The notes under the pieces: model-generated
What the model was told of the DNA's origin: nothing
Database searches by the model: none
The model's input: the letters and a program-made list of their open reading frames with translations, nothing else
Assembly (NCBI GenBank): GCA_003116975.1
Contig: BGKB01000085.1
Coordinates: 1 to 64,000 of the forward strand
Length of the DNA stretch: 64,000 bases
Direction: 5' to 3'
Origin: Aurantiochytrium sp. KH105
Taxonomy: Eukaryota > Sar > Bigyra > Thraustochytrida > Thraustochytriidae
Translations under genes and position numbers: made by a program
Shown here: in pieces, positions 1 to 55,367 of the stretch
How positions within the stretch are numbered: position 1 is the first letter of the stretch
How the letters are laid out: each line of letters opens with the position of its first letter

Positions 1-1371
1 AACGTCATTGCTATATCCTGAACCATCCGCGTAGCCTGTGTGAGGAGCATCAATGGCCGCGTCTCCGCTGTGGCCGACCAGGACAGTGTCATCATTGATA
101 ATGAGCAAAAGGACTGCAGGAACGCCGCTTTCGTGTGCTCTGTTTGCGACATCAATTTTCGACTTGAGCCACGCATCATTCCAGGACTCACTCATGAACT
201 CGTTCCGATGGCTTCGAAAGAATTCAAACCACATGCGCAAAACTTCAGCTCGAACTTTCAAATCTTTGCTTTTTGAGACGAGCCTTTTCGCCTCGTTGAT
301 TGAGCTGACCTCAGAGACAAAAACAACGTGCAAAACGTCAGCCAAAGAGTCGATGCCTTGAGCGATGAGCGGACCACTTGTTTCCTTCACAAAATCGCCT
401 TCGGCGCTAGCTTTACTCACAGCGAGGGCGTTGCCGGTGATGACGCGGTTAAGATGGTTGCCGCTGCTTCCTTTTTGCCAAGCCGCCTTGACACGATACA
501 CCCACGAGATTAGTCGGTAGTTTGAGAGCAGCAGGTCTTCAGCGAAAGTCGTTTCGGGAAGTTTTGGCATCGGACCCGGGTCGATAAAAAAGTAGGACGA
601 CAATGGGGCTCGGCCTTTGCGCAAACACGCGCAACATTCGGCGCAAACTTGCACCTGTCCATTTGAAACGCCCTGCTCGTGAACGACGAGGCATCTTCCA
701 GACTCAAATGTCGTGGTTGTGCGACTGCCAACCGCGCAGTTGGACGAGTCTTGAAATTCAATCGGGTCAAGCGCAGAATCATTTCCTTCGATCATCTCCG
801 CGATTCCGCTTCTGTCGTGGAGCACACCGCAAACACCGCAAGCCCACCGAATATGATTTCTAGAATCAAGAGTGTGTGCAATGAACTCATTGACGCACGT
901 GGCGAGCAACTCATCAGATGGTGGCTTCAAATGGTTTCGCCGTTCATCCGGAGAAATGCCTGCGCCAAAAATTCGATTCATGACGTCTGTTGCTTGCATC
1001 ACATCTGAATCTTGGATGAGAGGAACTGGCATCTGCGCATCGCTTCCAACCCTACGGCGACTTGATTTTGATTGGCTCTCAGGCTGTTTGCCGCCCTGGA
1101 TAGCTCGGCACCGCTTTTTGTTTCGACTCGTGTGGCGGCCCCCACAGCTTGCGCAAGGCCGCATTGGACAGGTGTACTTTCGGGTGCATTGGGATTTACC
1201 CACTTCACACCAGCAAGAACAGCCTTTCTTTAAAGAATGCCTCTTACCGCATTGATTGCAAAGAGGAGTGCAAGCTTTGTTATATGCATGCTTGCAGCCG
1301 CATTTACTACAAGGCCGATTTTTGCAACGATCGCGTCTGCAGTCCTTTGAGCCTTCACACCAGCAAGTCAT
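1..1371 (-). CDS. Helitron-like replicase N-terminal fragment (partial, runs off left edge)
   Basis: The minus-strand frame is open from an ATG at 1371 to base 1 (457 codons, no stop), with an in-frame TAA 15 bases upstream of the ATG. Residues 1-90 are Cys/His-rich, with repeated CxC, CxxC and CWC groups such as MTCWCEGSKDC and CSCWCE, suggesting zinc knuckles. Further on, the order CAECCACLRKGR, then a Pro/Leu segment, then TFAEDLLLSNYRLISWVYRVK, then a VRAEVLRMWFEFFRSH segment matches the DUF6570-like block that precedes the Helitron Rep domain in rolling-circle transposons. This is family knowledge matched by eye. The HUH Rep and helicase domains would lie beyond base 1, so whether the element is whole cannot be judged. 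The alternative is a host zinc-finger protein carrying this block. Confidence 0.6.
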   Translation of the reverse strand, partial: MTCWCEGSKDCRRDRCKNRPCSKCGCKHAYNKACTPLCNQCGKRHSLKKGCSCWCEVGKSQCTRKYTCPMRPCASCGGRHTSRNKKRCRAIQGGKQPESQSKSSRRRVGSDAQMPVPLIQDSDVMQATDVMNRIFGAGISPDERRNHLKPPSDELLATCVNEFIAHTLDSRNHIRWACGVCGVLHDRSGIAEMIEGNDSALDPIEFQDSSNCAVGSRTTTTFESGRCLVVHEQGVSNGQVQVCAECCACLRKGRAPLSSYFFIDPGPMPKLPETTFAEDLLLSNYRLISWVYRVKAAWQKGSSGNHLNRVITGNALAVSKASAEGDFVKETSGPLIAQGIDSLADVLHVVFVSEVSSINEAKRLVSKSKDLKVRAEVLRMWFEFFRSHRNEFMSESWNDAWLKSKIDVANRAHESGVPAVLLLIINDDTVLVGHSGDAAIDAPHTGYADGSGYSNDV

Positions 1372-1709
1372 TGTGAATTTGCGTTAGAGTATTGTTCGCT
1401 GATGCTTTTCACTAAAGCTTTCTGTTTTCATCGCTGCGAAGGGCTCGTCACTGCCAATAAATTAGCACCATCTACGCATGCGCCATCAACTAAGCAACTA
1501 TCACTTTTACTGAGGTAAGAATGGCCTACACCTACTTTTCATTGTATTGCATCAGCCAAGTTCCTCGATAATGGCTTGTGGCTGGCTTATTTCACTGTTG
1601 CAATGTCTTGCTGCCAGTATGACCAAACTGCTCGTTCACTTGCAAGCCACGTTGTTCGACTTGATGCGCTGATGAGCCCTTGAAACAGGCCTATTTGGAT
1701 TGCGGATGA
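1372..1709. other. Intergenic spacer between divergent genes
   Basis: This 338-base spacer lies between the Helitron-like fragment (minus) and the WD40 gene (plus). No coding frame or clear promoter motif is seen. A small upstream ATG at 1706 opens a 27-codon frame that overlaps the WD40 start at 1710 and ends near 1789, so it could act as an overlapping uORF. Confidence 0.4.
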
Positions 1710-3227
1710 ATGGCGGGGTTCGTGGAGCCGCGGCCGTGCGGAAGACGCCGCAATTGTCAAATTTCTGCACAAGTTTGCCCCCCGAGTAATAAATCAGTGC
1801 TAAAAACGCACTTCAGACATGTGTTGGAGGGGCACTCGCGTCCGGTCTCGAGCGTGGCGATGGAAGGCAATACGATCGTTTCTGGGTCTGTGGACAAAAC
1901 AGTGCGCATCTGGCACGCTATGTCCGGCGAGGAGCTTCATGTTTTGACGGGGCACTCTGATGTGGTCTGGAGCGTGGCGGTTGAGGGCAATACGATTGTG
2001 TCAGGGTCCTCAGACAATACGGCGCGCATCTGGAACGCTACGTCAGGCGAGGAGCAGCGTGTCTTGAAAGGGCACTCATCTTGGGTCAGGAGCGTTGCGA
2101 TCAAGAGCAATACAATTGTTTCTGGGTCTAGGGACAAGACGGTGCGCGTTTGGAACGCTACGTCGGGCGAGGAAAAGTACATGTTGGAGGGACACTCATC
2201 TGCGGTCGATAGCGTGACGATTGAGGGCGACACGATCGTTTCTGGGTCCGCGGACAATACGGTGCGCATCTGGAACGCTACGTCGGACGATCAGCACCAC
2301 GTCTTGGAGGGGCACTCCTCTTGGGTCCGGAGCGTGGCGATCAATGGCGATACGATCGTTTCTGGGTCTGCCGACAAGACGGTGCGCATTTGGAACGCTA
2401 CGTCGGGCGAGGAGCAGCACGTCTTAAAGGGGCACTCTGATTGGGTCCGGAGCGTGGCGATTGAGGGCGAGACAGTCATTTCTGGGTCCAAGGACAAGAC
2501 GGTGCGCGTTTGGAACGCAACGTCGGGCGAGGAGCAGCACATCTTGGAAGGACACTCATCTGCGGTCGATAGCGTGGCGATTGAGGGCAACACCATCGTT
2601 TCTGGGTCTGCGGACAATACGGTGCGCATCTGGGACGCTACGTCAGGCGCGGAGCAGCACGTCTTGGAGGGCCACTCTTCTTGGGTCCGGAGCGTGGCGA
2701 TTCAGGGTGATACAGCTGTGTCAGGTTCTTGGGACAAAACGGTGCGCGTTTGGAACGCTACACTGGGTGAGGAGCAGCACGTCTTAAAGGGGCACTCTGG
2801 TTCGGTCTTGAGCGTGGCGATTCAGGGCGGTTCTATCGTCTCCGGGTCTTGGGACAAGACGGTGTGCATTTGGGACTCTATATCCGGCGATAACAAACGC
2901 ACTTTAAAGGGGCACTCACTTCCGGTCTATTGCGTGGCGCTTGTTGGCAATACATTCGTCTCGCAGTCTTCCGATGTTACGCGTTATTGGGATGTTCGGT
3001 TGGGCGAAGAGCTCGACGCGGACGAGGCAGAGGCATCGTCTACACCTGAAACGAGCACTTTGGTAAATGTCGAGAACGGCATGCACGTGAAGATTACGGG
3101 AGGCATAGGCTTCACAACCGACCACAACTTTCCGACCACAGTTCGTCAAGGGAACGTGTTCGTTGTCGGCGACCGAAGCGGAATGCTTCATATCTTACAT
3201 TCTCAAGGCGTCAATCCTACGAGCTGA
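1710..3227 (+). CDS. WD40 beta-propeller protein with ten near-identical blades
   Basis: This 505-aa frame starts at ATG 1710, with an in-frame TGA directly upstream. After about 36 unstructured residues come ten WD40 repeats, almost all exactly 40 residues long. Each follows the pattern HVLEGHS..V.SVAI.G.TIVSGS.D.TVR(I/V)WNATSGEEQ. A divergent eleventh strand set (residues about 455-505, ending VFVVGDRSGMLHILHSQG) may close the propeller or sit after it. The GH, D and W positions that define WD repeats are kept in nearly every blade. No catalytic or NACHT domain precedes the propeller. The protein is therefore either a stand-alone scaffold or the 3' exon of a longer receptor whose 5' part I cannot see. 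High identity between blades indicates recent internal duplication or gene conversion, as known for NWD-type STAND genes. Confidence 0.85.
   Translation: MAGFVEPRPCGRRRNCQISAQVCPPSNKSVLKTHFRHVLEGHSRPVSSVAMEGNTIVSGSVDKTVRIWHAMSGEELHVLTGHSDVVWSVAVEGNTIVSGSSDNTARIWNATSGEEQRVLKGHSSWVRSVAIKSNTIVSGSRDKTVRVWNATSGEEKYMLEGHSSAVDSVTIEGDTIVSGSADNTVRIWNATSDDQHHVLEGHSSWVRSVAINGDTIVSGSADKTVRIWNATSGEEQHVLKGHSDWVRSVAIEGETVISGSKDKTVRVWNATSGEEQHILEGHSSAVDSVAIEGNTIVSGSADNTVRIWDATSGAEQHVLEGHSSWVRSVAIQGDTAVSGSWDKTVRVWNATLGEEQHVLKGHSGSVLSVAIQGGSIVSGSWDKTVCIWDSISGDNKRTLKGHSLPVYCVALVGNTFVSQSSDVTRYWDVRLGEELDADEAEASSTPETSTLVNVENGMHVKITGGIGFTTDHNFPTTVRQGNVFVVGDRSGMLHILHSQGVNPTS
1818..3014 (+). repeat. 120-bp in-frame tandem repeat, ten copies (WD40 blades)
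   Basis: Ten consecutive 120-base units (the last three bases shorter) encode the WD40 blades. A higher order is visible. Blades 3-4-5 carry SSWVRSV, SSAVDSV, SSWVRSV and blades 6-7-8 carry SDWVRSV, SSAVDSV, SSWVRSV, with matching KDKTVRVW/ADNTVRIW endings. This suggests duplication of a three-blade, 360-base block. Confidence 0.85.
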
Positions 3228-8148: not shown

Positions 8149-11100
8149 ATGAGCAATCAAGAAAAGCTCAACAGAGCGATTAAGGCGATCAAAAACGGTG
8201 CGACAGAAATCGAGTACGTAAATGACAAATTCTAAGATCCCCCAAAACAAGAGCTGACCACAACCCACGTGCACACGCACGCACGGAATGCGATGGAATG
8301 CAATTTTTGGCGCGATTTCGTTCATCTTGGCGTCTCATGTTTTGGCGAGCGCAGTCTTAAGTACAACAATATCGGCGCAGAGGGCGCCAGGGCGCTCGCG
8401 AACGCACTCGCGAACAACGAGTCGCTGCAGACGCTAGTGTAAGTGATTGCGAAAAAGTGAAAGTGAGGCCAAAAGCCCAAGAAGCAACAAGACCTGACCA
8501 CAACTCACGTACGCACGCACGCATGGGATGCGACGGAGTGCAACTCTTGGCGCGATTTCGTTCATATTGGCTCTCATGTTATGACGAGCGCAGTCTTTGG
8601 GACAACAATATCGGCGCAAAGGGCGCCAGGGCGCTGGCGAACGCACTCGCGAACAATGAGTCGCTGCAGACGCTAGAGTAAGTCATTGTGACAAAGTGAA
8701 AGAGGGGCCAGAAGCCCAAGAAGCAACAAGAACTGACCACATTCCACGCACGCACGCACGGACGCATGGGATGCAATGGATTTCAACCCTTGGCGCGATG
8801 TCATTCATCTTGGCGTCTCATGTTATGACGAGCGCAGTCTTTCGAGCAACAATATCGGCGTAGCGGGTGCAACGGTGCTGGCGAACACACTCGCGAACAA
8901 CGAGTCGTTGCAGACGCTAGTGTAAGTGATTGCGAAAAAGTGAAAGTGGGGCCAGAAGCCCAAGAAGCAACAAGACCTGACCACAACTCACGTACGCACC
9001 ACGCATGGGATGCGACCGAATGCAACCCTTGGCGCGATTTCATTCATCTTGGCGTCTCGTGTTATGACGAGCGCAGTCTTTATAACAACAGGATCGGCGA
9101 CGAGGGCGCTACGGCGCTGGCGAACGCTCTCGCGAAGAACGAGAGTCTGCATATGCTAAAGTAAGTCATTGCGACAAAATGAAAGTGGGGCCAGAAACTT
9201 AAGAAGAAAGCAACAAGAGCTGACCATAACTCACGTACGCACGCACGCATGGGATGCGACGGAATGCAACCCTTGACACGATTTCGTTCATCTTGGCGTC
9301 TCATGCTATTACGAGCGCAGTCTTGAAATCAATAACATCGGCCACGAGGGCGCGACGGCGCTGGCGAACACACTCGCAGAAAATAAAACATTACAAACGC
9401 TCGAGTAAGTCCCAAGAAGGACCCACGCCCCGCATCAAATTCCTTCTAACATTCTAAAATTACAGCATGGACCGGCCCCAACGTCTTGCTATCGAGGCCG
9501 CTCTCGAACGCAATCGAACTCTGTACGAACAGAGTCAAACGCCTCTCATGCAGGCGTGCAAGAACGGGGACATCCCGGAGGCAGAAAAGTTGGTCGTCGG
9601 CGAAACCCGGATCGACGCGCGGGACACTTTAGGTCAGACAGCGCTGTTTCACGTTTGCGAAGCCAAGGATGAGGACATTGCTCTCCTTCTAGCAAAACTT
9701 CTTTTCAAGCGCAGCGTAGGTCTTTCGAGCGAGTCCCTCGGGATAAAGAAGGCCATTAAGGATGCTGCTTCCAAGCATTACACGAAGCTGTCCGGCTTTC
9801 TCTCCTTCATACACTCGTTACCGTTAGCACAGCTCCAAACCAACGCCCTGCGAATGATGGTCGTCAACCTTTTCGATAAGGGTGTGCGAACGCTAGAAGA
9901 GTTTCGTCGTCTCACTCTTGCTCAGCTCGAAGTAATGGGATTTTCAAGCGCGCAGGACCGTCGTGCGCTGCTACTAGCATTCGCAGATCCTGAGCAAGCA
10001 CTTGACCTCAAGGTGTCCGATGCCACGGAGCAAACTAGCAAACTTGGAGCATTAGCTATCAAGATTTCTCTTGTGCGAACGGAACGTGGAGAAGACAAAG
10101 TTTCCCTTCATCCGAGACTGCATGAGGTTTTTGCCGAGCAGCTCTCGCGCAAGAACCCGGTCGCATCTTTTGCAGACTGGGATAGGCAGCAAATCATCCT
10201 CCGGGAAAAGGCGCGTGAGCTGACTACGCTCCAGGAGGCTGTCAAGACAGACTCGGAAAAAGTACCTCAACGAAATGAAGCTCGACGCGACCTTGTCGCG
10301 GGTATTCGGGAGGCTTTGTCAGGGAGAATCGAAGGTCGGCTGGAGAGACTACGAGCGGATCCAGTGACAAAGGCTGCTCTAGACTCCTGTCATAGTCTAT
10401 GGAAGGAGATTCTAAACGGCCCTGTGGACGTCGATGATGCTGTCGCACAAGTGACCTTTGAGCAGGTGATGGAAGCAACACAAACCGCAGCAGAGGCCGT
10501 AAAGGCCTGGGAGACTCGACATGACACGAGCGCTGCGCGCAAGCACTCCGAAGCGGCCATTGATGCTTTGGATGAGAGCACCAAGCGCCTTGGCATCCAG
10601 CCAACATTCTTCATGACGCTGAGACATCCCGAGAGGACAAACGAGCTAGCAAACGAGCTGGAAATGGTGCAGCAAGCATTCGAAGCCGAGCTCAGCGTCT
10701 TGGCGAACGTCGATCCGATGGCAGACGCTCCAATGGTGGAAATCCGACGAGCATTGGCCAGCACCATCTCATTCTACACCCGCTCAGTTACGAACGAGGT
10801 CTCGCGCTTGCAGACAGACGTTAAAGATCTTACCGAGCTCCTTTCCCGGCACGTTCCCGGACTATCTGAGCCATGCACGACGGGCGTAGAAGAGATCATG
10901 CAAAGCATGCGCAAAACGAAGCGGAAGCGTGAACGACTTGAACACGATCTTCGCTACGCCCGCGAGGATGCCAATGACGGAGATACAGAAGCTCGAGCTC
11001 GCGTTCCTGGCCTCGAGCATGAGCTTGCTCAGATCGGGAGTGTTTACAAGCTCGACAGCGAGCTGCGCAAAGAGCGCGCACGCGTTCTACGTCATGCAGA

Positions 11101-12661
11101 GAAACACTATCCTGAGTTGCTACGAGATCAAGAGTGGCTGCGGAGCTTGGGCATACAGAACAGCATACCCCACGAGCTGTCCACGTTGGGTCTCTGGCTG
11201 ACCAATGCAAAACGTGAAGATTTTAGGACTGTCGCGCAGCTTCCATCCAATTCTGGCAAAATTGTCCTGCATGTACGCGATCTAAATGGCCAGGAGTTTG
11301 TGCTCAAATCCTTTCATCTCGCCAACGAAGAGTGGAGCAGTCGCTTTTACCGTCAAGTGACAGTGCTTGCTCAGATGCAGTCAGCCTACATTGTGCGTAT
11401 TCAGGGCGCCTTCATGCAGGACGCGCATCAGGGCTGCATTCTGATGCCCTTTTACAAGGGTGGCGACCTTGATGCCTGGATTCGAGACAACCCGTTTGCA
11501 GACTTGGCAACGCGCAGGCGCATCGCTATCGGTCTTTTGTACGGTTTGCACGATTTGCACTCGCAAGGTTTTGTGCATTGCGACATCAAGCCAAAGAATA
11601 TCTTTCTCGCACCAAGTCTTTCACCAGTGCTAGGGGACTTTGACGGCGTCCAGATGCACAACGTGACCATGACGCAGCCTTTGCAAACGACCAAGCAATA
11701 CATGGCACCCGAGCTGCTGCGTGACGAAGTTGTTGACAAGGTTGAGTCTGCCGTGGACATGTACTCTGTGGGCGTGGTTCTCGCGAAGCTCTTCGAGAAC
11801 GCAGAGATATCAGAAGCCACCAAGTCACTTATATCGTCTCTGCGGTCTGAAGATCCAAGTCAGCGGCCAACTGCACTCGAGGCCTTGCATCACGAGGCCT
11901 TTCAGGTCGAGCCTGTGAAGGAGGCCTCGTGTGCCATTTGCCTCGACACTTATCCCGCCGATGAGGGCGTCTCTTGCGCTGACGGTCACTTTACGTGCAA
12001 AGAGTGCTTGGGCCACTCAGTCCGTGCCGCGGCTCAGCCTGATGCACACGTGAACTTCTTGCGCGATGGCAGCATGTGCTGTGTCGCGTCAGACTGCGAG
12101 CTCCTCATTACGGGACATGCCATAGCAACTGCTGTCCCAGAAGACTTTGCGAACTGGCTCAACATCGTGCGCAAGCATTTTGAGCGAGACGCCGCAGCCG
12201 AGCAGGAGCGCCAGCTCCAGCTTCGTCTCGATGCAGCTCTGCGTGAGCATGGGCTGGATCCGACGACGCAGAATCACCTTCACACAATTCAAGATTCAGT
12301 CCTCGTCATGTCGTGCCCGCGCTGCTCGACAGCCTTTGCCGACTTTAAGGGCTGCTGTGCTCTGTCATGCTGCGTTTGCCCGTGTCGTTTTTGCGCATGG
12401 TGTCTTCAGGACACAGGCAATAACTCGCCGGCTTGTCATCAGCACGTGGCGAGATGTGCGTCGAAGCCTGGTAGAGAAAAGGATCCATTCTTTAGCGATT
12501 TCGCTGTCGTGCAGCAAGCATGGGCTCGACTTCGAGCACAGCGTCTCCGTGAGTACATGACAAATCGTATTCAGGATGCAGGCATACGTGCCATCGTCCA
12601 GGCCAAGCTACGTCCACTCCTCACGCCGGACATTGTCGGCGGAAACTTTAGGTTCGACTAG
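8149..12661 (+). CDS. LRR-ankyrin-protein kinase-RING/RBR-like fusion protein, seven exons
   Basis: I read the exons as 8149-8213, 8355-8438, 8594-8677, 8838-8921, 9077-9160, 9321-9404 and 9466-12661, all joined in phase 2 by GTACGT or GTAAGT donors and AG acceptors (1226 aa). Exons 2-6 each encode one 28-residue ribonuclease-inhibitor-type LRR (L.NNIG..GA.ALANALANNESLQTL). Residues about 183-246 look ankyrin-like (TPLMQACKNGD, LGQTALFHVC) and about 285-335 SAM-like, followed by a long helical region. A kinase domain lies at about 755-980, with lysine in EFVLKSF, HCDIKPKN as catalytic loop, DFD in place of DFG, and an intact APE. A RING-like CAICLDTY starts at about 985. A second Cys/His cluster (CPRC..., FCAWCL, HQHVARC) at about 1110-1155 resembles RING2 of RBR ubiquitin ligases. 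Likely role: a sensor coupling LRR recognition to phosphorylation and ubiquitination (inference). Confidence 0.82.
8240..9404 (+). repeat. LRR exon-intron cassette array, five copies in 483-bp dimers
   Basis: Five 84-nt LRR exons start at 8355, 8594, 8838, 9077 and 9321, with spacings of 239, 244, 239 and 244. The introns between them are 155, 160, 155 and 160 bases and are themselves closely similar. Shared parts include CAAGAAGCAACAAGA, the ACGCACGCACGCATGGGATG segment and the 3' end GACGAGCGCAG. Exons 1 and 3 of the array end CTAGT with donors followed by GATTGCGAAAAAG; exons 2 and 4 are followed by CATTG(T/C)GACAAA. The true unit is therefore a two-exon dimer. The 3' part of the first intron belongs to the array; the last 61-base intron does not. 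Confidence 0.9.
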
Positions 12662-13955: not shown

Positions 13956-14957
13956 TTAAAGCATTTGACTTGAAGTGGGCGGATCGGAGTTGCTGGCAAG
14001 ACGCAGAATATGGAGCGCGCCGCTCTCATCAAACAGAGCAAGCGAGTCAGTAACTGCGCCGTTGGGGCTGTGCAAAAGACGCTGAACAGGACTTGGTAGC
14101 GTCATGTAAGCGCCTGTTCCGCGGTGCTCGACGCGTTTGCCGCCAGCAGACACGGCCCAGAGCCTTTGTGTCTCGGCATCGTCGGCGTCGTCGCCGTGGA
14201 GAGCTTCCTCGGACACCGCGACTCCTGCAAGGGAGTCGCTCAAGAGTTCCGAGGTTTCGCGACTCCACTCGCGGCACGACCCGCTGCTGCAAATGGTAAT
14301 GAGTTTGTCGTCATCCACCTTGACCCTTGTGACCATGCTGTCGTGGCCTTCGAGTACGGCAACACATTCGTTCGTCTCTCGAAGCCAGACGCGGGCGGTA
14401 CGGTCCTTGCTCCCCGTGAGAATAATCTCATCATCCATGTCGATACAGCGCACGAGGCCGCGGTGGCCAACGAGTTCTTGGCTCGAAAAGGTCTCTCGTG
14501 AAAAAACCTGCACGGAGCCACTCGCGAGGGCCGCGACAATGAGTGAATCATCCATGGCCAGGTCCCAGACGTCGTCGCACGGTAGCGTGCGTACAGGCAG
14601 ACCGGTTTCTGCATCCCAAAGCCTAATGCTGCCCTTGGCTGCGCTCACAATAAGGTTTGCTTCCTTGTCGCGACCGACAAAGGAGACTGGGTGTTCATGA
14701 CGGCCCCAGGGGCGATGGACCTCGCGCAGCGTATCTTTACCGCCGGGGAGTAGCAGGGTGTTTCCGTCCACGGCAAGGTGCGTTGGCGTGTTGCTTGCAA
14801 GAAAGACTTTGTGGACAAAGGCGCCCGTGGAGAGAGACCAAATGTGAATGTGCTGCGCGTCTGCCGAGACGGCGAGGCCGTCCGCCACCACATCAAAGGC
14901 GACAACGCCCAGCTTGTGTCCATCGTACTCGAGCAGGCAGACTGCGGTTTCCTCATT

Positions 14958-15005
<48 letters not shown>

Positions 15006-18000
15006 TTCGTCGTCGTTGTCTTCGTCCAAAGGTGGGACTACCTTCCAGATGCGAACGACGCGGTCATCGAGGCCGCAGGTGACAAGTGTGGCGCCATGCA
15101 GACGGACGGTCGTGAGCGAGGTCTCGCGGGTCTTGATACGCCTCCGAGGCGTGTCGTCACCATGAGCAATATCCCCACGGTAGTGCAGGTAGGCAGCGCC
15201 GTCGGCGCGGCCAACCGCGACCCAGGTATCATCAATATCGAGAGCCACGACAGGCGAGGTGGACGACTGGATGACGCGCACGCACTTGTGCGAGGCGCGC
15301 GACCAAAACATGACACAGCCGTCCTTGGCCCCGCTCACAATATAGCTCTCTGTGAGGCAAACCTTGGTGACCTCGTTAGAGTGTCCGCGCAAGGTGTGCA
15401 AGCAGGCGCCCGAGGCGAGCGACCATACCTTAATGGTGCGATCGACCGACCCGCTCACCAAGACATCGTCGTCCATGGCCAGGGTGTTGCAAATGCCATC
15501 GTGACCGCGAAAGATGCGAAGGGTTTTTAAAGTGGAGCGGCTGTATACCCGAAGCGTTGAGGCGGCGTGCATGGCAACGAGATCGCCCCAGACGACTGCG
15601 GCCTGGACGTTGGTGACCGGTGCGTACTGAAAGGGTTCGAGCTCTGGGCTAGCGCTGAGGCTTGGAGCCACGGTTTGCAGCCAGACTTCGGGCGCAAACT
15701 CTTCGAGGTTGACGCGCATCGAGTGCCCAGGGGGCAGACGCCCGACCATTTGCGCGGCCAGCTCCGTGGGGTCGCGTTCAATGACGTCGGCAGCCTCTTC
15801 AAGTGCGCGAACCACGTCGGCGCATTCACGAAGGCTAGGCGAGTTGATGACGGAGTCGTGGTCATAGGTGTCGGCAGTTTGCGTCACTTCGACGAGAGAG
15901 CCCACCCCGCTTGAAGAGGAAAGCGAGGTCACGGACCGCCGGGGCTCAGCTTCCGGTTCGCCACGGGGTGGCGCAAAGACATCAGATGCCGCCGCGTCGA
16001 AAAAGGTCTCCTTGCAGTCCTTGACGAAGCTGTGCGGGGACACGTTGAGCAGGCGAAAGGTGTAGCTCAAGAGCTCAAAGTCACCAATGATGCGGGCGGC
16101 CACGGAGCGCAGATTGGCGCGGCAGAGATGGTAGACAGCGTTACGGGCTGCGGTTTCGTCGTTAATGTAGTTGTTGCGAAAGATGCTGGAGAGCGCGTAA
16201 TGTCCCGCGAGCGGGTCGATGCGAAGATCCTCGGGGGTGTCGGGCTGCATGAGGATTTTGGCGATGGAGCTGTGGACAAAGCGGACCTTGTCCTCGACAA
16301 GGTCAAAGAGCGGGTCCATGTCTGCGACTGTGAGAAAAGGGACGGCGTCGGCGGCAAGTCGTAGCGGTATTGGCTCGCGCGCCACGCAGACCGCGGCAAG
16401 CATGTCGCGGCGCATTTGCATGTCGACGCCGTCACCGACGAACTTGCGCAGGAGCATGGTCAGGTACGCTGATTGGTCCGTAGGGACCTCTTTCAGGCCA
16501 CGGACAGTCTTTTCTGCCGTGAGAAACCGCGCGCGCAAAAAGAGACCCCCCGCGCGCTCTCTGGCCACCGTTGCAGCGTGCCGTGGAAGGCGGGACAGGT
16601 AAGTACGCAGAAACAGCTCGATATCGGCCTGATTCTTTTGCTGCTCGAGGTCGATCTCCATCGTGACAAAGGGCGCGGCCAAGGAGGGGGTCTGGCTCGA
16701 GAGGCTCACCACGGTGCCCAACCAAGGCGGCATAAAGTTATCCCACTTGTTGTGCAAGAGGTCGAGCAGGGACCGGGCGTCATGGGGGCCGAGTTCCTCG
16801 ATGCCATCAAGTACAATGTACGCTTTGCCCTTGGGCTTGATGGGCAAGTACCGCAACGGTGCTGCAATCCATTTTTTGAAGAGTTGTTTGCGTCCAAGCG
16901 TTTTGGGGGGGGCATTCTCGGTATTCTCGCGTTGCAAGATGGCGTCGAGGGCTTCGTGGAAGCCAGGGATGGTCCCGCAGAGTTGGGCTGCGAGGGTGCG
17001 TACCATGCTTTCGACGGAGCAACTCGCGGCATCTTCGCGTCGAAAGAAATAGGCGCCGGCCACGAGCGGCGGCATATCGTAGGAGAAACTCCCGAGGCTG
17101 ACCACGGTGGCATTGCTGCGGCGCGAGGCGCGCATTGAGAATCGTTGCATGAGCGACTTGCGTTTGCCTGTTCCCGCCTCTTCCTCTGGACTGCCATCTG
17201 GTCCGTGCATTCGGCCCGAGGCAATGCCAGGCTCCGAGGATGCGCCGTGAGAGCCAGCATCAGAGGCAACTGATGCCACCGCTGCTGATGTGGAGAATTC
17301 GGGATCGGGAATGATGTCTTCTCCCGCTGCCGCAGTGGTGCTACTGGCTTCTCCTTGGTCATCGTCGTCATTGTTGCTGTTGCTGTTGTTCTTGTTGCCA
17401 TCATCATTGTCGTCGTCGTCGTCGTCGTCGTCGTTGGTCCGATGCGAGACGCTTGGCGAGGGTTTGCGCGCAAAGAGCTCATCAAGAGCCTGGGCCGTCA
17501 AGGTCGTCTCGGGCTGGGACGGCACAGCCAGCTCGCGAAAGGTTGACGCCGGATTGTGCAGCAGACCTCGAAGGCAGAATTGGGCGAGAAAGACGGACTT
17601 GCCCGCGCCCGAGGGCGCCTGTAGCGAGACGCGGGCGGCGCGTCCTCCGTTCGAGGCCTCGCGAAGCTTGTCGACGAGCACCGTGTGCAGCCAGCTGCGC
17701 GTGCCCGCGAGGGCCTCGTCCGAGATGCGGCGGACTGTGCGGAGCATGCTGGCCGATCTTTCCTTGTCGGCAAGATTGGCGCTCGCAGGTACGCTCTTGA
17801 GGACGCCTTGATCCTCGGCCTTCTCCAAGAGGTCCATGAGTTGGTCCATGGCCTCATGGACCTTGGCGTTGGACGTGAGGTCAACGATGGGCCTGGCGCC
17901 AAAGGCCTCGCGCAGACGGCGCGGCCACGTCTTTCTGTCCAGCAGCGAGGGGTCGAGAATGACAGGGACGGTGCGCGCCGTGCCGCGTAGCATGGTACCC

Positions 18001-18278
18001 AAGGTAAAGTCGAGCATTTCCTCGGCGCCGCCGGCCGTCGTGGACGTTCCGCTGACATAGTCCACGTACGTTTGGGTGACGAGCGTCACGAAGAAGTGGG
18101 CCAGGTCCATGGACGCGCGCGGTTCGTCCTCCTCTTCGCCCGACCTGTCGAGGACCTTGACCCTCCCGTCTTCCCTCAGCGCGCTCACAAAGGCCTCGGC
18201 CAGCTGCAGGTACGCCATGTCCCTGGCGGGCGCCTCAGCCGGCGACACCCGCGACACGTACACATTCACCGCGCGCAT
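13956..18278 (-). CDS. TIR-like/NACHT/WD40 NLR-type STAND protein
   Basis: Single-exon frame of 1440 aa starting at ATG 18278. Residues 1-150 resemble a TIR fold: VYVSRV, then LAHFFVTLVTQTYVDYVSG, then EEMLDFTLG, then TVPVILDPSLLDRKTWP. A P-loop (APSGAGKSVFLAQF) lies near residues 221-234, and a Walker-B-like strand (AYIVLDGIEELG) near 480. Between them is an Asp/Asn-rich insert (about 275-305). Helical winged-helix-like sequence follows, then about ten WD40 blades from about residue 916 to the end (RGHDGICNTLAMDD, VSGSVDRTIKVWS, LRGHSNEVTKV). A (DE)n tract sits between blades. This tripartite order is that of signal-transducing NLR/NWD receptors in animals and fungi. The expected role is ligand-triggered oligomerisation and TIR signalling or NADase activity; the TIR catalytic glutamate could be one of EEMLD, but this is unproven. 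Confidence 0.82.
14961..15005. repeat. GTCCTC hexanucleotide microsatellite inside the NLR-type gene
   Basis: About seven GTCCTC units on the plus strand encode alternating Asp-Glu on the minus strand between two WD40 blades. A GTC run at 17409-17434 similarly encodes the poly-Asp insert of the NACHT part. Both are prone to length change without frame loss. Confidence 0.85.
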
Positions 18279-20270
18279 CTCTCCTCCTCCTTTGACCCCT
18301 CCTTTTTCTCCTCCTCGCCCTCGCCTCGCCCGCCCTGCCCGTCGCGCGTCGCGTGCACGTGCACGTGCCGCGGCGATGCGCTCTCCGCCTTCGTCTCCCT
18401 CCTGCCCTAGTTAGCGAGAGAGGCACGGGAGAAGAGGCAGGAGCAGGGACCACCTCCTCCTCCTGGCCGCCGTCCACGCGCGCGCGCGAGCGAGCGAGCG
18501 AGCGAGCGAGGGAGGGAGGGAAGGGGGGGCGGGGTAGCCGCGCGGCGGCGCGAGCGGGCCGGGCGTTGCCGGGCGCGGCCGCGCCGCTGGTCTGCTGCTG
18601 CAACTGCAGGTACAGCGAGGGGCGTGCGCGATCAAGCAAGCGAGCGTGCGAGCGAGTGCTCCTTCCCGCTCTCCCTCTTTGGGCCGCCGCGCTGGCCCTC
18701 TCCTCTCCTCTCCTCTCTGGCGTCTGCTCTTCGAGTCTGCTCTGCAGCTGCACCAGCCACGAGCAGCGGCCACGAGCAGCTGCGGCCTCAAGTCGTCGGA
18801 GAACGCGGACTGCGCCGTGTAGTGAGTGCCAAAGTCGGCCAGGTGGTGCAAGTACGTAAGTGCCTGGGTATAACCAAAGTGCCTGGCAACCAATGGCGAC
18901 TAGAGCAACATGGCAACAGCAGCAAACGGCGGCGGCAACTGCAACAAAACGATGGAAATAATAGGGACGGGCGGCCATGCACGTGCCGCGTTTCGCACAT
19001 GTCTGTCTGTGTGTGCGCGTGTGTGCGTGGACGCTATGAGTCGTAATATCAAGTGAATAGGGGAGTTAGGAATGTCACGACAGGCGCAGGTGCAGGTAGT
19101 GGCGGCCACTGGGGGCTTGTATTGGCAGCTGGCTGCTGGGATGCGCCAAATGTAAAGTCAGCCAAGATTGGGCTGTCGACCTGATCCAAGATCGGCCTTC
19201 ATCTGGCTGTTCGCTCGCTCGCATCTTCGTCTATAGAATCTATCCCTTCCCATCACCAGCTGCAGCGAGCCAACCTCAACTACAAAGTTCAACCTGGCAG
19301 GCCGTTCTCGGAAACAACGCCCGCGGCGGCGCGTTGCGCAGCGACACCACGACGTCGTCCTCCTTCCGTCTCCCGCGCAGCTGCAGGTTGCTGCTTCTGC
19401 GGCAGGTTCTCCATCTCGTTTCTGCTCCTGCTCCCCCAAGTTCTCGCTCCCGCTCCCGTCGCCGTGACTTCTCTCCTCCAGCACATCGCGGTCGTCTTTC
19501 CTCCGTCCGTCGGCGGCCCTCGCCTCCTCCGCGGCGCGAGCCGTGCAGAACCCGAGGCCTACTTAATTTGTCAGGTCTACGGCAGAACGAACTTGGATCA
19601 TCGAGCGCGGAAATTCGAGATAGCAGAACTGCAAGAGCGGGAGCGAAGACAGCGGCCGCGGATCCCCGTCCGTGCGAGTGCGAGCGCTCGTTTCCTGCGT
19701 GCCTCCCCTCCTTCCTTCCTTCGCTCGGGCCAGCGCCCGTGCGCTCGACCGCGACGCGACTGCCGCTGCCGCGCGCCTGAACCGCGGCTTCGCAGCCACC
19801 AGCCGCGCGAGAGGGACGGAGGAGGAAGGCCGCGAGCACCGCATCGACCTGGCCGGCGCTCACTCACTCATTCCCTTCATCCACCTGCCCAAGTCCCCAT
19901 CCCGGCCCGCCACGCTCGCAGCCCGCCCCTCCAGCGCCGCGCCTCCTCGCTGCAGCTGCGCTCTCCTCGGCCCACGCGGAGCGCGCGTGCGTCGCCGCTT
20001 GCCCGGGCGCCGCGAGAACGTGGCTCGGGCCGGCGGGCTGCACTGGCTGAGCGGGCGAGAGACAGCGCGAGGAGGAGAGGAAGCAACCCGGAGACGAGCA
20101 GGACGAGCAGCTGGCCAGGCCGAGCCAAGCAAACAAGCAAACCAGCAAACAAGCAAACAAGCAAACAGCAAGCAAACTTTCCTGCACAGCGAGCGCGACA
20201 CAGCAAGCGGCGGCAGCAGACCCAGAGCCAGAGTCGCTTCGACGCGCGAGACACGCCCGCCGGGACCAGG
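18279..20270. other. GC-rich upstream region of the NLR-type gene
   Basis: Very GC-rich DNA with simple runs (GAGC runs near 18485-18520, AAGCAAACA runs near 20130-20180). Many overlapping open frames on both strands have Arg/Ser/Ala-biased composition and no domain. Presumed promoter of the minus-strand gene and 5' region of the small plus-strand gene. Confidence 0.35.
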
Positions 20271-23979: not shown

Positions 23980-24358
23980 CTAGAATGGCAGGACAACTCG
24001 ACGCGCGGACTTGAGCCACAGCAGAGACGAAAATCGATCTCCCCCTCCCCCCTTTTCGAATAAAGTGGAGAACGGTAGAATGACTCGACGCGCGGAGTTG
24101 GACCATAGCAGGGACGAAAATCGATCTCCCTCTTCCCCCCTTTTCGAATAAAGTGGAGAACGGTAGAATAACTTGACGCGCGGAGTTGAGCCATAGAAGA
24201 GACGAAAATCGATCTCCCCCTTCCCCCCTTTTCGAATAAAGTGGAGAACGGTAGAATAACTTGACGCGCGGAGTTGAGCTACAGCAGAGACGAAAATCTT
24301 CAAGCGATCTCCCCCCCCCCCCCAACTTCGTCTAATAAATTGGAGGACGGGTGAGAAA
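23980..24358. repeat. 88-bp tandem array, about four copies
   Basis: The word TTTTCGAATAAAGTGGAGAA recurs at about 24053, 24141 and 24229, an 88-base period. Each unit also has CGACGCGCGGA, a GAGACGAAAATCGATCTCC segment and a C-rich run. The first and last copies are partial or diverged; the last has CTTCAAG inserted before the C-run. The array lies between the start of the Nudix gene and the 3' end of the first antiporter gene. Each unit carries AATAAA on the plus strand. Confidence 0.85.
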
Positions 24359-24797: not shown

Positions 24798-27317
24798 TTA
24801 CACAGAAGCAATGGCCTTGTTGCCGTCATTGTTGCTGTTACTGCTCGCAGATGCGTCAGCGTCAGCGTCTTCGACCTCGTCGTTGCCCTCGTAGAGATGT
24901 GCGTCAGACCCGGCCGAAGTGGACTGGTCCTCCGAGGCGGCGCGACGAGTCGCTTCCTTGAGCTCGCGAAGTTTGGCATCCTTTGTGATGAGCAGGTAAA
25001 GTTCGAGAAAAGGATCAAGACGACCGCTCGCGCCACGCGTGGGGGCGCTCATAATAAAGCACAGGACAATGGTGACGACAATTCCGACACCCATCGCAGC
25101 ACCCGTCGAGTACGAACCCACACCCACGGGGATAGTGCCGACAATGATGCTAACGACGCCCACAGTGAGCGCGTACGGGGCCTGGGTACGCACATGGCGC
25201 TGGAGGTCGCAACGGCTGGCCAAACAGCTGAGCACGGTCGTGTCGCTAATGGGCGAGCAGTGATCACCAAGCACCGAACCGGCCAGAACAGCAGCAATTG
25301 TGCCGTAAAAGATGTTGAGGTCGCCGTCGCTGGCAATCCAAGCAGGCTGCGTCACGAGCGGAAAGACAATGGTCATGACGGACCAGCTCGAGCCCGTGGC
25401 AATAGCCATAAATGCCGAGATAATAAAGGTAATAGTGGGAAGGTAATCCACGTTGAGGCCGCTGGTGATGGCCCGCGAAAACAGACGATCGCACCCGACG
25501 GTCGTCATGATTGATCCCATGGTCCACGCGAGGACGAGGACAATTACGGCCGGAAAGAGCGTGGTAAGTCCCATCAAAAAGTACTCAAAGCTCTCCACCG
25601 GCGACAGGAGCGGGCGTGCAATGTCGTCATTCATCGTTGCGTCACCGTCAGCCGATTCGGCACCGTTGCTGCTGGCAGCGCCGCGAGTGTCCTCCTCCGA
25701 GAGGGTCTTGCCGGCAGCGACCTTGTCGTCGACAGCCTGTTCGGTCGCCTCGGGGCCCTTGGACGAAGACGAGGAGGAGGAGGTCGTCGTCTCCTTTTTA
25801 GACTTGCACGGGCGCACGAGCTCCCACAGGCCACGGGGCGTCGGGATTGCCAGGTGGCCATTCTTGACGAACTGCAACATGTACAAGACCATGGCACACA
25901 CTGCGGCTCCCACCGTACCAATGAGGAGCGCCGAATACGAGTCCGAGTTCTGAATCACAGTGAGGAAATCAGCGTCCGCATCCGAGGCGCTGCGGCCCGT
26001 GGTGACCAATACCCAAAACACGAGGAGGACCAGAACAGCAATGGGCAAGAGCATGTTGTATGCGTAGCGGGGGACACCCTTCTTCGGCTGGATATCATTT
26101 GTGAGGCCGGCGGCGCCGTCAAAGGCGCCTTCGCCGCCATCGGTGCGACCCGAAATGAAGACTTTGCGCTCCGCGACGAGCATGGGGCCAAAGTCGCGCT
26201 GCATGAGCGCCAGACTGAGCTGAAAGACAATGAGGTAGATCGGATAGTACCGGTATGCAATGGTCTCGAGAAAGATGGCATAGGCACTGGAGGGGAGGCC
26301 TTCGGGGCTCGTACCACCGTTGCTCTCTGTGATCCGGTCCAGCTCCGTCTGGATCAGTGAGACCTCAAAGCCAACCCAGCTGGAGATGGGCGAGATGCTG
26401 GCAATCGGGGCGCTGGTGGCGTCAGTAATCCATGCCGTCTTCTCGCGGCTGACAAAGTTGTCGAGAATAGGGCGCATTGTGTTGCCGATCACGAGCGTGT
26501 TGGTGTAGTCGTCAAAGAAAATGAGGATGCCACTGGCCATGGCGATGACCTGCGCCCAGCGCGCATTGCGTGCGAACTTGACAATGGTGGCGGAGAGACC
26601 GTCCATGCCGCCAGTGCGCTGCATCATGGCCACAAGGCCCGAGAGGAAGAGCGAAAAGAGAATAACAAACTGGTGGCTGCTGTCTGCGACGGCCTCGAGC
26701 AGGTAGGTTTGAAAGGTGTCGATAAAGCCTTGGCGCAACTCTCCGGCCACCATGCAGGCGCCCACAAAGATGCCCAGGACGAGGGCGATCTCCACCTTTT
26801 GCAGAGTGACGGCGACAAAGAGCACAACGATGAGCGGGACGATCGACGCGCCGGCGTTAATGGCCTGGGCCGAGGCGTCGCCGCTGGTGGTCACGTCTGC
26901 GTCGGCAAAGGTGCTGTCCAGCGAGAGGTCGGCGCTCACGGTAACGAGTCCCGTGTGATCCACAGTGACGTCACCCATGTCGATACTGTCGGGGAGGATC
27001 CGCGATTCGTTGAGTGCCTCGGAGCCCGTACTGTACTCTTGTCCGTCCACAAAGAGGCGCCAGTAGAGCGCGTCGCCCTGGGCATACTCTGCGTCGAGTT
27101 CGCTCCATTCGAGCGCGGCCGTGACGGCAAAGGCCTCGTCTCTGAAGAGCGTCGTGTACTCGATTTCCACCGAGGCGCTGGGCGCGTACAGGATGGGCTC
27201 GGCCCGCGCGGCGGTGGCCAGCATCAGCGTCATGGCCGCGGTGGCCAGCATCGCCGACACCATCATCATCTTCTTGCTGCTGTTGCTCGCAGTCTTCCTC
27301 GCCGCAGCTGTTCGCAT
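24798..27317 (-). CDS. NhaC-type Na+/H+ antiporter with signal peptide (copy 1)
   Basis: I start it at ATG 27317 (839 aa); the frame is open to 27536, but that part begins at a TTG and is low-complexity. Residues 1-39 form a signal peptide (MMMVSAMLATAAMTLMLATAARA). An extracytoplasmic domain of about 150 residues follows (YAPSASVEIEYTTLFRDEAF..., LYWRLFVDGQEY). About a dozen membrane helices come after it, with NhaC-family motifs: FFDDYTNTLVIGNTMRP, ASISPISSWVGFE, GSSWSVMTIVFPLVTQPAW and GDHCSPISDTTVLS. A cytoplasmic Ser/Lys-rich loop lies around residue 540-600. The family exchanges Na+ for H+ across membranes. A close paralogue lies 4 kb upstream on the same strand, so the pair arose by tandem duplication. 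Confidence 0.85.
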   Translation of the reverse strand: MRTAAARKTASNSSKKMMMVSAMLATAAMTLMLATAARAEPILYAPSASVEIEYTTLFRDEAFAVTAALEWSELDAEYAQGDALYWRLFVDGQEYSTGSEALNESRILPDSIDMGDVTVDHTGLVTVSADLSLDSTFADADVTTSGDASAQAINAGASIVPLIVVLFVAVTLQKVEIALVLGIFVGACMVAGELRQGFIDTFQTYLLEAVADSSHQFVILFSLFLSGLVAMMQRTGGMDGLSATIVKFARNARWAQVIAMASGILIFFDDYTNTLVIGNTMRPILDNFVSREKTAWITDATSAPIASISPISSWVGFEVSLIQTELDRITESNGGTSPEGLPSSAYAIFLETIAYRYYPIYLIVFQLSLALMQRDFGPMLVAERKVFISGRTDGGEGAFDGAAGLTNDIQPKKGVPRYAYNMLLPIAVLVLLVFWVLVTTGRSASDADADFLTVIQNSDSYSALLIGTVGAAVCAMVLYMLQFVKNGHLAIPTPRGLWELVRPCKSKKETTTSSSSSSSKGPEATEQAVDDKVAAGKTLSEEDTRGAASSNGAESADGDATMNDDIARPLLSPVESFEYFLMGLTTLFPAVIVLVLAWTMGSIMTTVGCDRLFSRAITSGLNVDYLPTITFIISAFMAIATGSSWSVMTIVFPLVTQPAWIASDGDLNIFYGTIAAVLAGSVLGDHCSPISDTTVLSCLASRCDLQRHVRTQAPYALTVGVVSIIVGTIPVGVGSYSTGAAMGVGIVVTIVLCFIMSAPTRGASGRLDPFLELYLLITKDAKLRELKEATRRAASEDQSTSAGSDAHLYEGNDEVEDADADASASSNSNNDGNKAIASV

Positions 27318-29678
27318 TCCAGTTCTGCTGGTCTCGATGGTCGCTGGCCGGGCTTGTCTGCTGCGCGTCGCTCCTTCCTTTCTTCCTTTCTTCCTTCCTG
27401 TTTCCCCTGTCTTCCTCTCTGCGTTCTCTCTCTCACTCTCTCCCTCTCTGTCTCTGCGGCAGTGCGGAAAAAGTAGCCAGAGAGCGTGCGTGCGTGCGTG
27501 CGTGCGTGCGGTGCGATGAGAGGGAGCGTGCGGCAACTTGCTTTGCTTTGCTTCTGCTTTTGCTTTTGCTTTTGCTTGGCGCCGGCCGACGAACAGATGG
27601 ATGGATGGATGGATGAATCAATGCTCGTCTGTCCTGTTTGGTCTGTCTCCTCGTCTGTCGAATAAAAGTTAGCCCTGGCTGTTCGCGTGGCGCGCTCGTT
27701 CGTCCGCGTCTGCAGCTGGCTGTTGCACTGCGTGCGTCGGCTCGGCCAACCTACAGCTATAATAAATGCAAGATCAAAGCAATGGCGCCGTGACGCTCTC
27801 CGTTGCTCCGCGATGCCTTTGCTCCGCTCCGCTCCGTGTCTGTCCCTCGCGCTAGGCTGGCGCTGGCTGCCGCAGTCGGTTCCGCTCGCCCGGCAGTGGT
27901 GGCTTGGCAGCTGGGCCCGACCGGTTGCGAGGCCTGGACGCGGCGCTCCGCCTCAAAAGTGGGCTCCGGCGTTGCCCTGCGCGTGCGTGCGTCCGGGCGT
28001 GCGAGCGTGCGAGCGTGCGCGCAAGCGGTGCGAGCAACAGCGCGCGACAGAGCGAGCAAGCGGGCGCGCGGGGTTCGAGCCGCGGCGTTGCAGGTTTTGG
28101 TTTTGGTTTTGGATTCGAATTTGAATTTGAATTTGAATTGGTATTGGAATTCTGCCATCCAGCTCTTCGCGCTCCTGCTCCTCAGCGGCCACTGCAAGAT
28201 CGATTGCCTCGCCTCGGCGGCCGCGCCGCGACGCCAGGGCCGCGTCGGTCAGCGGAGGCACGCGGCGGGCAGGCGCGCGGCCGGGCGGGCGGCCATGACC
28301 AGTCGCAGCGGCCACCCGCACGGTAGCGGGTCGGTCGCTTCCGCGCCCCGCCTCCTTTCCCGACCGAGAGAAAGGAAGACGAACGAACTCGCCTCGCGGC
28401 GGTGGCCTTGCTCAGTGGCCCCAAGACTCTGAACGCGTGCGAGCGATACGGCGAAGCGGCCACTGGCTGGTGGCTGTGGCTGGCATCTGCCTGACTGGCT
28501 CGCGCCGGGGAGGGCGCGCCCCGCCATGGCTCGGAAGGGAACTCGCCGCTCCGCCGCGACGGCCAGATTATGAACGAATTTCAAAAACCCGTCCCGCCGA
28601 GTCTCTGCCTGCCTGCCTGCCGCGGCTGCCATTACAGCCACCGCGTCCCTTCGACCGTTCGTCTCCGTGCCGCGCGGGTCAGGAAGCAAGCAACCAAGCA
28701 AGCCCTCCGCAAATTGACCGTGAGACGGAGAGGCGCGAACGCGCGGCAGGCGACGCCCGCAGGCCGGATGCGAGCGGCCGGTCGCTCCGAACGGGCCCGC
28801 GCGAGCCACCCGTGGCGCCTCCTCGCAGCCCTCCAGTTCCTCTCCGCCCTGCTTCGGCGCGGCGCGTGGCAGCGCAGCGCAGCTGCCAGTCGCGCCTTCG
28901 GTCATGTCATGGCATGCTCTCTGTCACTCGCATCAGTCCCATGCTCTCTCCACATGTCCTCCGCACGAGATCGTCTTCTCTTGCTCGCTCTCGCACCGCG
29001 GCCTGCGACGGCTTGGCCTGTCTGGCTTGGCTTGGCTTGGCTTGGCTTGGCCTGGCTTGACTTGGTTTGGCTTGGCTCGACCTTTGGCTTGGCTCGACCT
29101 TTGGCTTGGCTCGACCTGGCCGGCCTTGCCTGCCTTGGCTGCGTGCGTGCGCCTGCGTGCCGAGGACGCGAGCTGACTAGGCCGGGCTGACGAGGCGGGT
29201 CCGAACAGCGGGCCAGGGGACTCAAGGCGGGACCAGGCTTCCGGAAGCCCGCTGGCCACCACCACCCAGTGGCAGTGGCCGCGGTGGCTCTCTCGCTCTC
29301 ATCCTCTTACTTGCCAGTTGGCGCTGCGCCTCTCTCTCGCTCTCTCTCTCTCTCGTTTCCTCTTGCGGCCTCGCTGGCGCTGCTTCCCTCCGCACCGCGC
29401 GATCGCTGCACCAGGAGAGGGGAAGGAAGGTCGGCACAGCGCGGCGGCTCCTGGCGGCGGAACAAGATGCTTGAAACGCGCAGCTACCTCGCCTCGTCTT
29501 GCCTCGTCTTGCCTCGGTAAACTTCGGAACGCGAGAGAGAGCTAGGAAGCGAGCAGCGCACCCAAGGCCGCTGCTGCTGCAAACGAAACTCGTGGATGCC
29601 GTCTTTCCTTGTTGGCGGCAGCGGCGCGGGCAAAACGGCATGGGACTGACCCACTCTTCCTGTCTCTGCCTCCTCTTG

Positions 29679-54306: not shown

Positions 54307-55367
54307 CCTCCTTTCTTCTTGTGGACGGCGTCCTCGACCTTGTTGTGCTCGCGCGCCCGGCTCGCTCGCTCAACCTGCTTCTTCCTTTCCGTGTTTCCAC
54401 TCTACTTCTTCTTCGATTCCACTTTACTTTACTTCTTTGGATCACGTCAACGAGCACCTGCGTCACGTTATGCAGGCAGTTTTGCTCACTCGCCTTTCTC
54501 GTCGTCCTCGTGAAACAACACTCCCCCAAAATTAAAGAAAAGAAGTCCTCGCTTGCTGCTTGATGCATCCATCCTTTGGCTTGCATTTGTGCGTTATACG
54601 GTATCGTGCCTTGTACCGTACAAGAAGACTTTTTCACTCTGGTACGCAATCATCAATATCGTACTTGCACGCTCTCTCTCTCTCTCTCGCGCTTTGTCTC
54701 TTTTCGGCCTTGGTGGGCGTGCGTCCGTCGGCCACAAGTCTGCGACTCCGACGACATGCTTTAGAGACTCTCTCGCGCTTTCTCAAGTTCTTCGCCGGCA
54801 GCGATCAGGCGAGCCCTGCGTCGAAGCCCTTGCTTCTGGGCCGAGGCAAGCTGCTGGCCTTCTGCCTCCGCTCGCTCGCTGTCTGCCTGTCTGCACCAAG
54901 CCCAGCGACAGACGACATCTCGGGCACGTGCACGTGCGACACTCTGGCCGGCCTGCAGTCCACATTTCCGACGCGTGCTCGCTCGCTCGCTCGCTCGCTC
55001 GCTCGTTCGTTCGGGCGAAGCTGCTTTCGCGCCCGTGCACGCGCGCTCGCTCGCTCGCACGCGCAAGCGCAAGCGCAAGCGCACGCACGCGCAAGCGCAA
55101 GCGCGCAAGCTCCTCGCACTCAAGGGCGCGCGTAACGAAGAAGGAGCTCTCCGCTCGCGCGCGCAGAGCTGTAAAAACCATCCGCGGTCCCTCCAGGCGA
55201 CCGACTGCGAGCGACCGACTGCGAGCGACCAACCGACCGGACGATCGTCCGCACGCGACGCGACGCGGACGCACGCAGACGCCGACGACCGCGACGGAGA
55301 GGCCCGGGGACGAGGCCTACCTTGCTGGTGGAGACGCTAGCGCTCGCGGCGAAGCGAAGAGGCAAGC
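54307..55367. other. Divergent promoter region, hypothetical and GYSWET-repeat genes
   Basis: GC-rich with GCTC runs near 54975-55010, GCAAGC runs near 55065-55110 and GACCGACTGC repeats near 55195-55230. Open frames on both strands are composition artefacts. No gene is supported. Confidence 0.4.

Follow-up and report, generated by a model that had tools for sequence, protein, structure and literature searches.

A row of look-alike exons separated by look-alike introns raises the question of which unit was copied, and of whether the copies have gone on exchanging sequence since. Such a row lies within a predicted gene in the DNA analysed here, a stretch of 64,000 nt from Aurantiochytrium sp. 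KH105 (contig BGKB01000085.1, positions 1 to 64,000; hereafter, the window).

As modelled from the sequence, positions 8149 to 12661 of the forward strand read as one gene of seven exons. Predicted exon 1 (8149-8213), whose start ATG is preceded by an in-frame TAG at 8137, specifies 21 residues and the first two bases of the codon after them, and ends in phase 2 before GTACGT. It is followed by intron 1 (8214-8354; 141 nt), which is homologous to introns 2 to 5 from about position 8246 onwards, while its first ~32 bases are not clearly so. Five LRR exons then occupy positions 8355-8438, 8594-8677, 8838-8921, 9077-9160 and 9321-9404, separated by introns 2 (8439-8593; 155 nt), 3 (8678-8837; 160 nt), 4 (8922-9076; 155 nt) and 5 (9161-9320; 160 nt). 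Intron 6 (9405-9465; 61 nt) leads to the last exon (9466-12661), which comprises 1064 whole codons and ends with the stop codon TAG at 12659-12661. All five LRR exons are 84 nt long, open with TCTT after GCGCAG and close before GTAAGT, and each encodes one 28-residue LRR of the ribonuclease-inhibitor (RI) type; their spacing is 239, 244, 239 and 244 nt. In the gene model, each of the six junctions is in phase 2. In these respects (five LRRs on five 84-nt exons, phase-2 borders, alternating spacing), the original prediction for this locus is confirmed, and so is its view of the exons as symmetric cassettes: because both borders of each LRR exon are in phase 2, the loss, gain or skipping of a single one is predicted to leave the reading frame intact. 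Retention of an intron would lead to an early stop, after seven codons for intron 1 and after a single codon for the other five of the six (introns 2 to 6), the latter because of the phase-2 border combined with the GTAAGT donor.

The spliced product is a single frame of 1226 residues that runs into the 1064-codon last exon. It matches 11 Pfam families at E 0.01, including LRR_6 (2.6e-20) and Pkinase (2.3e-33). The five 28-residue repeats, the LRR_6 match and the structural relatives agree on LRRs of the RI type: of the solved sequences, a ribonuclease inhibitor-like protein ranks first (E 8e-41), and both RI and NLR chains are present among the best 60 of 87 solved relatives at E 0.001. The last exon specifies, in order, an ankyrin match, a middle part with below-cut-off matches only, a kinase domain and RING-like cysteine clusters. 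Scanning in separate pieces placed Ank_2 barely above its cut-off (27.8 against 27.3 bits), with SAM_2, UBA and zf-RING_2 all below theirs. The Pkinase match spans profile positions 12-196 of 263 and thus identifies a protein kinase domain, in which stretches reading HCDIKPKN, DFD and APE can be seen by eye; we take these to be the kinase motifs of the predicted protein. The C-terminal cysteine clusters gave weak matches to the RING ligases Roquin-1 (E 0.0076) and RNF216 (E 0.041), and a second weak C-terminal match was to RNF31 (E 0.017), together with a TenA-family chain that is unrelated (E 0.032). RNF216 and RNF31 are both RBR ligases; an RBR ubiquitin ligase has the order RING1-IBR-RING2, with a catalytic cysteine.

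NLRs carry a NACHT domain. Neither NACHT nor NB-ARC is among the 11 Pfam families matched at E 0.01, which sets the product apart from NLRs, the human ones included; nor is the ROC-COR tandem among these 11, so that the product does not classify as a ROCO protein either. No signal peptide was seen by eye in the exon 1 product and the protein begins almost at its first LRR, for which reasons the predicted LRR-ankyrin-kinase-RING-like protein is probably cytosolic. Relatives were sought in prokaryote genomes and viral contigs only, and misses there carry little weight. With positions 10091-12655 as the query, 17 pattern matches in prokaryote genome contigs yielded one relative, on a bacterial contig (26% identity over query residues 400-587), and viral contigs gave zero pattern matches. 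The LRR array as the query matched eight stretches in viral contigs, none of them a relative; the exon DNA pattern matched two viral contigs, with no LRR array there in any of the three frames read on the matching strand for ~800 nt.

The G+C content of the window is 50-66% in 2-kb steps, unlike the 45% given for Aurantiochytrium sp. TWZ-97 (PMC12258536). Several other open reading frames (ORFs) may be noted in it. At 1710-3224 (+), a WD40-repeat ORF with nine WD40 matches forms a single uninterrupted frame; its DNA repeats in units of 120 nt, with a higher-order unit of 360 nt, in contrast to the intron-split LRR array. A long ORF at 13959-18410 (-) combines a match to a STAND-type NTPase (NPHP3_N, E 1.4e-9) with WD40 repeats behind it; this neighbour of the LRR-kinase gene thus has an architecture like that of an NLR. 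A second LRR_6 ORF, of 1046 residues, lies at 58901-62038 (-), its LRR part in one open frame. Two ORFs at 24801-27617 (-) and 31338-33779 (-) match a Na+/H+ antiporter family (E 4e-33 and 3e-33) and are possible paralogues; a further one at 55341-57059 (+) matches the N-terminal domain of Immune Mapped Protein 2 (E 5.9e-19). A DUF6570 match (E 6.9e-10) falls in an ORF with a cysteine-rich start at 1-1383 (-), which runs to the window edge, and at 23995-24298 lies a tandem repeat with a unit of 88 nt (3.5 copies, 91% matches).

How alike are the introns, and how far does the likeness reach? They had been described as nearly identical, which holds for introns 2 to 5, with 85.9-94.8% pairwise identity, but not for intron 1, which is 79.3-81.4% identical to these four, nor for intron 6, whose homology is not demonstrable (its alignment score with intron 3 was equalled or beaten in 18 of 300 shuffles). 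TRF places the start of the repeated tract at 8246, inside intron 1, and its end at 9377, just before the diverged tail of LRR exon 5. The simplest reading is a tandem array of exon plus intron at about 8246-9377, with looser edges, a reading better supported than that of a copied dimer (see below). That the edges of tandem repeats escape homogenisation is known from concerted evolution of such repeats. When introns 1 to 6 and exons 1, 4 and 5 were compared by BLAST with the rest of the 64-kb window, only matches of 34 nt or less were found, the best intron match (E 2e-4) falling in a simple-repeat stretch. A profile of the five LRRs did not detect a second array in the window; its best other match (E 0.014) was to the LRR ORF at 58901-62038.

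The introns could also be alike through a working element that they share, i.e., a structure, an RNA gene or a splicing-control site, serving for example exon choice. Introns 1 to 5 do contain long conserved blocks, as such an element would have it, but the window has no Rfam match at gathering thresholds, intron 4 (the only intron folded alone) folds no better than its shuffles (z 0.23), and a double change occurs in only one of the 30 pairs of the predicted intron consensus structure. We regard this explanation as highly improbable. A search for tRNA in the window found none.

Which unit was copied? According to the original prediction, it was a 483-bp dimer of two exons: the unit E1-I2-E2-I3 (E, LRR exon; I, intron) would have been duplicated to give E3-I4-E4-I5. 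The alternation on the donor side, which was part of the argument, is indeed present at three sites, namely the last exon base and intron bases 7 and 15. The intron lengths of 155, 160, 155 and 160 nt, on the other hand, reflect four indels at four different places: I2 has one G fewer near its 3′ end and I4 one G fewer in its middle, while the four extra bases of I3 lie in a CACG run and those of I5 in an AAGA run. The background on which these indels arose would be an intron of 156 nt. Since the 239/244 alternation comes from four unrelated indels, the spacing argument for the dimer fails.

Other evidence on the dimer is divided. The closest introns are I2 and I4 (94.8%), as a duplicated dimer would predict, but I3 and I5, sister copies under the same model, are the least similar pair of I2-I5 (85.9%), and the closest exons are the neighbours E1 and E2 (91.7%). 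Exons are, on average, more alike at lag 1 (80.1% identity) than at lag 2 (77.4%); for introns 2 to 5, the means are 89.2% and 90.4%, so that lag 2 is not clearly above lag 1. TRF scores period 483 higher than period 239 (1609 against 1548), but the share of matches is lower (83% against 85%). Sites that split the copies two by two fit the dimer grouping in three of only five informative cases when units are taken as exon then intron, and in four of only eight when taken as intron then exon. The grouping of copies 1 and 3 against copies 2 and 4 has the best likelihood in three of four partitions (bp-RELL 0.44 for exons 1-4, 0.79 for introns 2-5 and 0.69 for both joined), but the partition of introns 1-4 puts 1 and 2 against 3 and 4 first (0.54), and AU tests reject no grouping in any of the four (lowest p-AU 0.07). 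A dimer step is, thus, possible rather than demonstrated, and we think it an unlikely course of events. For the study of tandem arrays in general, the pitfall is that regular spacing, here 239/244, can be the product of indels that have nothing to do with each other and does not necessarily reveal what was copied.

The single exon-plus-intron unit leaves the question of whether exons and introns are of the same age. The original prediction had named equal divergence of all cassettes as the case against it; what is observed is a range of exon differences from 8% (E1-E2) to 31% (E1-E5). Among units 1 to 4, synonymous divergence is 0.10-0.29 in all six pairs, and the introns that precede these units differ by 5.6-16.5%. 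Unit 5 stands at a synonymous divergence of 0.53-0.66 from the others (four of four pairs), while the intron before it differs from the other introns by just 8-15%. Pairwise Fisher tests gave p values from 2e-6 to 5e-5 for the pairs with unit 5, pairs that share copies, and none below 0.05 for the six pairs of units 1 to 4. In all five copies together, third positions of the 14 codons whose residue is unchanged took 10 steps at 14 sites, as against 30 in 107 columns of the intron core, an excess with a Poisson p of 0.007 (Fisher p 0.027 for variable columns). In copies 1 to 4, the strictly synonymous rate is no different from that of the introns (6/16 against 25/107, p 0.175), and at such sites exons 1 to 4 appear about as diverged as the introns. 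Taking all third positions outside codons 3 and 4, not all of them synonymous, the same four copies give 11/26 against 32/164 in introns (p 0.015). Because the two rates do not differ in copies 1 to 4, the case for intron homogenisation rests on exon 5.

Exon 5 is not diverged evenly over its length. Compared with the majority of E1-E4, it differs at 8 of 48 positions in nt 10-57 and at 13 of 27 in nt 58-84 (Fisher p 0.0066), and its G+C content is 30% in the last 27 nt (9378-9404, the A+T-rich 3′ edge of the array) against 60% in the first 57 nt. Exon 4 leans likewise, without significance (8/27 against 7/48, p 0.14). By this comparison, exon 5 is an outlier, mostly through its last 27 nt, beside an intron that looks young. 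The ages of exons and introns in the array are thus partly at odds, a sign of possible exchange; we infer that it took place within the introns.

The same disparity would also be expected if the introns were younger than the exons, that is, if near-identical introns had been inserted recently, in the manner of introners, into an older, intronless LRR array. Intron 5 is indeed far less diverged than the next exon is at its synonymous sites, and two other ORFs for repeat proteins in the window (WD40 at 1710-3224 and LRR at 58901-62038) look intronless over their repeats. Such gains, however, would need at least five insertions at the same position of the repeat and on one strand, with none in the 3.2-kb last exon; the introns have no relative elsewhere in the 64 kb beyond the short matches described above, and, judged by strictly synonymous sites, exons 1 to 4 are of about the same age as the introns. 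We find this hardly credible. A static array, born of one or few past duplications, fixed in copy number by now and always fully spliced, has more in its favour: living variation is not in evidence from one allele, and the copies, with a synonymous divergence of 10-66% from one another, are not very young. The likeness of the introns (86-95%) beside the synonymous divergence of exon 5 (above 50%) is nevertheless hard to reconcile with it unless there was later exchange, and we rate a static array as somewhat unlikely.

Codons 3 and 4, just past the splice junction, specify five different residues in the five copies (K, W, S, Y and E at codon 3; Y, D, S, N and I at codon 4). As established for LRRs of the RI type, these positions of the LxxLxLxxN pattern face the concave side. 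In copies 1 to 4, the two codons took 7 steps at 6 sites, more than the intron columns (32/164, p 2e-4; 32/154 when ungapped, p 3e-4), the other exon sites (25/78, p 0.004) or the third positions (11/26, p 0.015). Mean entropy is 1.52 bits in the five concave-face columns against 0.41 elsewhere (exact p 0.0023 over random sets of five), and the most variable three of them (columns 1, 3 and 4) give p 0.0006, both sets having been chosen after the alignment had been seen. Different concave-face residues in each repeat fit selection for different binding surfaces.

The account we prefer, and consider reasonably probable, is that of an intron-split LRR module that exchanges within its introns while selection acts on its concave face. 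The repeated unit would consist of a single 84-nt phase-2 exon, specifying one 28-residue RI-type LRR, and an intron some 156 nt long. Both the growth of the array and the partial likeness of its copies would be due to unequal crossing over, or to gene conversion, within the look-alike introns, recombination and copy-number change being read here from one allele; exchange or exon skipping would alter the repeat number in whole units and keep the frame. The edges of the array, that is, the 5′ part of intron 1 and the last 27 nt of exon 5, would join in this exchange less and so diverge more. Selection would favour differing concave-face residues in each repeat, and the resulting binding surface would signal through the kinase and possibly the ubiquitin-ligase end. 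Carried further, the gene might encode a cytosolic LRR-kinase-RING-like sensor, neither NLR nor ROCO, in which the number and order of repeats vary between strains or transcripts by intron exchange or skipping and the concave-face codons are pushed apart by selection: a receptor diversified in the germline or by splicing. This extension is tentative, and we think it rather unlikely to hold in full; the original prediction, which saw here a ready mechanism for receptor diversity, went further than the evidence does.

The layout itself is already known from human NOD-like receptors, brown algae and Tetrahymena, and the present gene, with all five predicted LRR exons of 84 nt and phase 2 at all borders, is a further example; the comparison that follows draws on sections of the papers cited. 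Open-licence papers, at title and abstract level, yielded none that describes such an arrangement in an LRR-kinase-RING protein, a combination for which wording is little covered, so that absence from print is not established; among the titles listed for that combination, the Tetrahymena paper cited below was the only one on the layout; nor was there a direct match among them for thraustochytrid LRRs or for 84-bp LRR exons.

Most human NOD and NLRC genes devote each exon to a single LRR of 28 residues, and the exon border invariably falls at one position of the beta-sheet (Hoss et al. 2019, PMC6642158). They share with the present gene the RI type of LRR, the single 28-residue LRR per exon and a layout in which skipping would keep the frame. 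Human NLRP3 has 171-bp exons with two LRRs each, and skipping of its exon 5, with the frame kept, has been shown (PMC6642158, PMC11352923). Near-identical introns, as in the present gene, are not mentioned for the human NOD, NLRC and NLRP genes in the sections of PMC6642158 drawn on here.

The ROCO genes of brown algae have 72-bp phase-2 exons, each for one 23-residue LRR; a protein has, on average, some ten LRRs and can have as many as 49 (Teng et al. 2024, PMC11378527, which cites Zambounis et al. 2012 for these genes). Positively selected sites of these exons lie on the concave face, splice variants are documented, and exon shuffling together with alternative splicing has been proposed to diversify binding; somatic recombination, according to the same paper, has not been reported. 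One LRR per exon, phase 2 and change on the concave face are thus common to both, whereas the algal proteins carry a ROC-COR GTPase and the present one a kinase, the units differ (72 bp and 23 residues against 84 nt and 28 residues), and splice variants are documented only for the algal genes.

Tetrahymena has tandem 90-bp phase-2 LRR exons with introns of characteristic length, in thousands of genes, some of them fused to protein kinase domains; growth of the arrays by unequal crossing over has been proposed, an association with retrotransposons is described, and Ka/Ks is mostly that of purifying selection (Xiong et al. 2019, PMC6564038). The present gene has in common with these the tandem arrangement of LRR exons that are all equally long, the phase-2 introns and the link to a kinase; it differs in the length of its exons (84 nt) and in being a single gene with five of them in the window. 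In the present array, the ages of introns and exons can be compared copy by copy; and as a further case of the layout, on a kinase/RING-like protein, it supports a repeated origin of one LRR per exon where binding surfaces must change.
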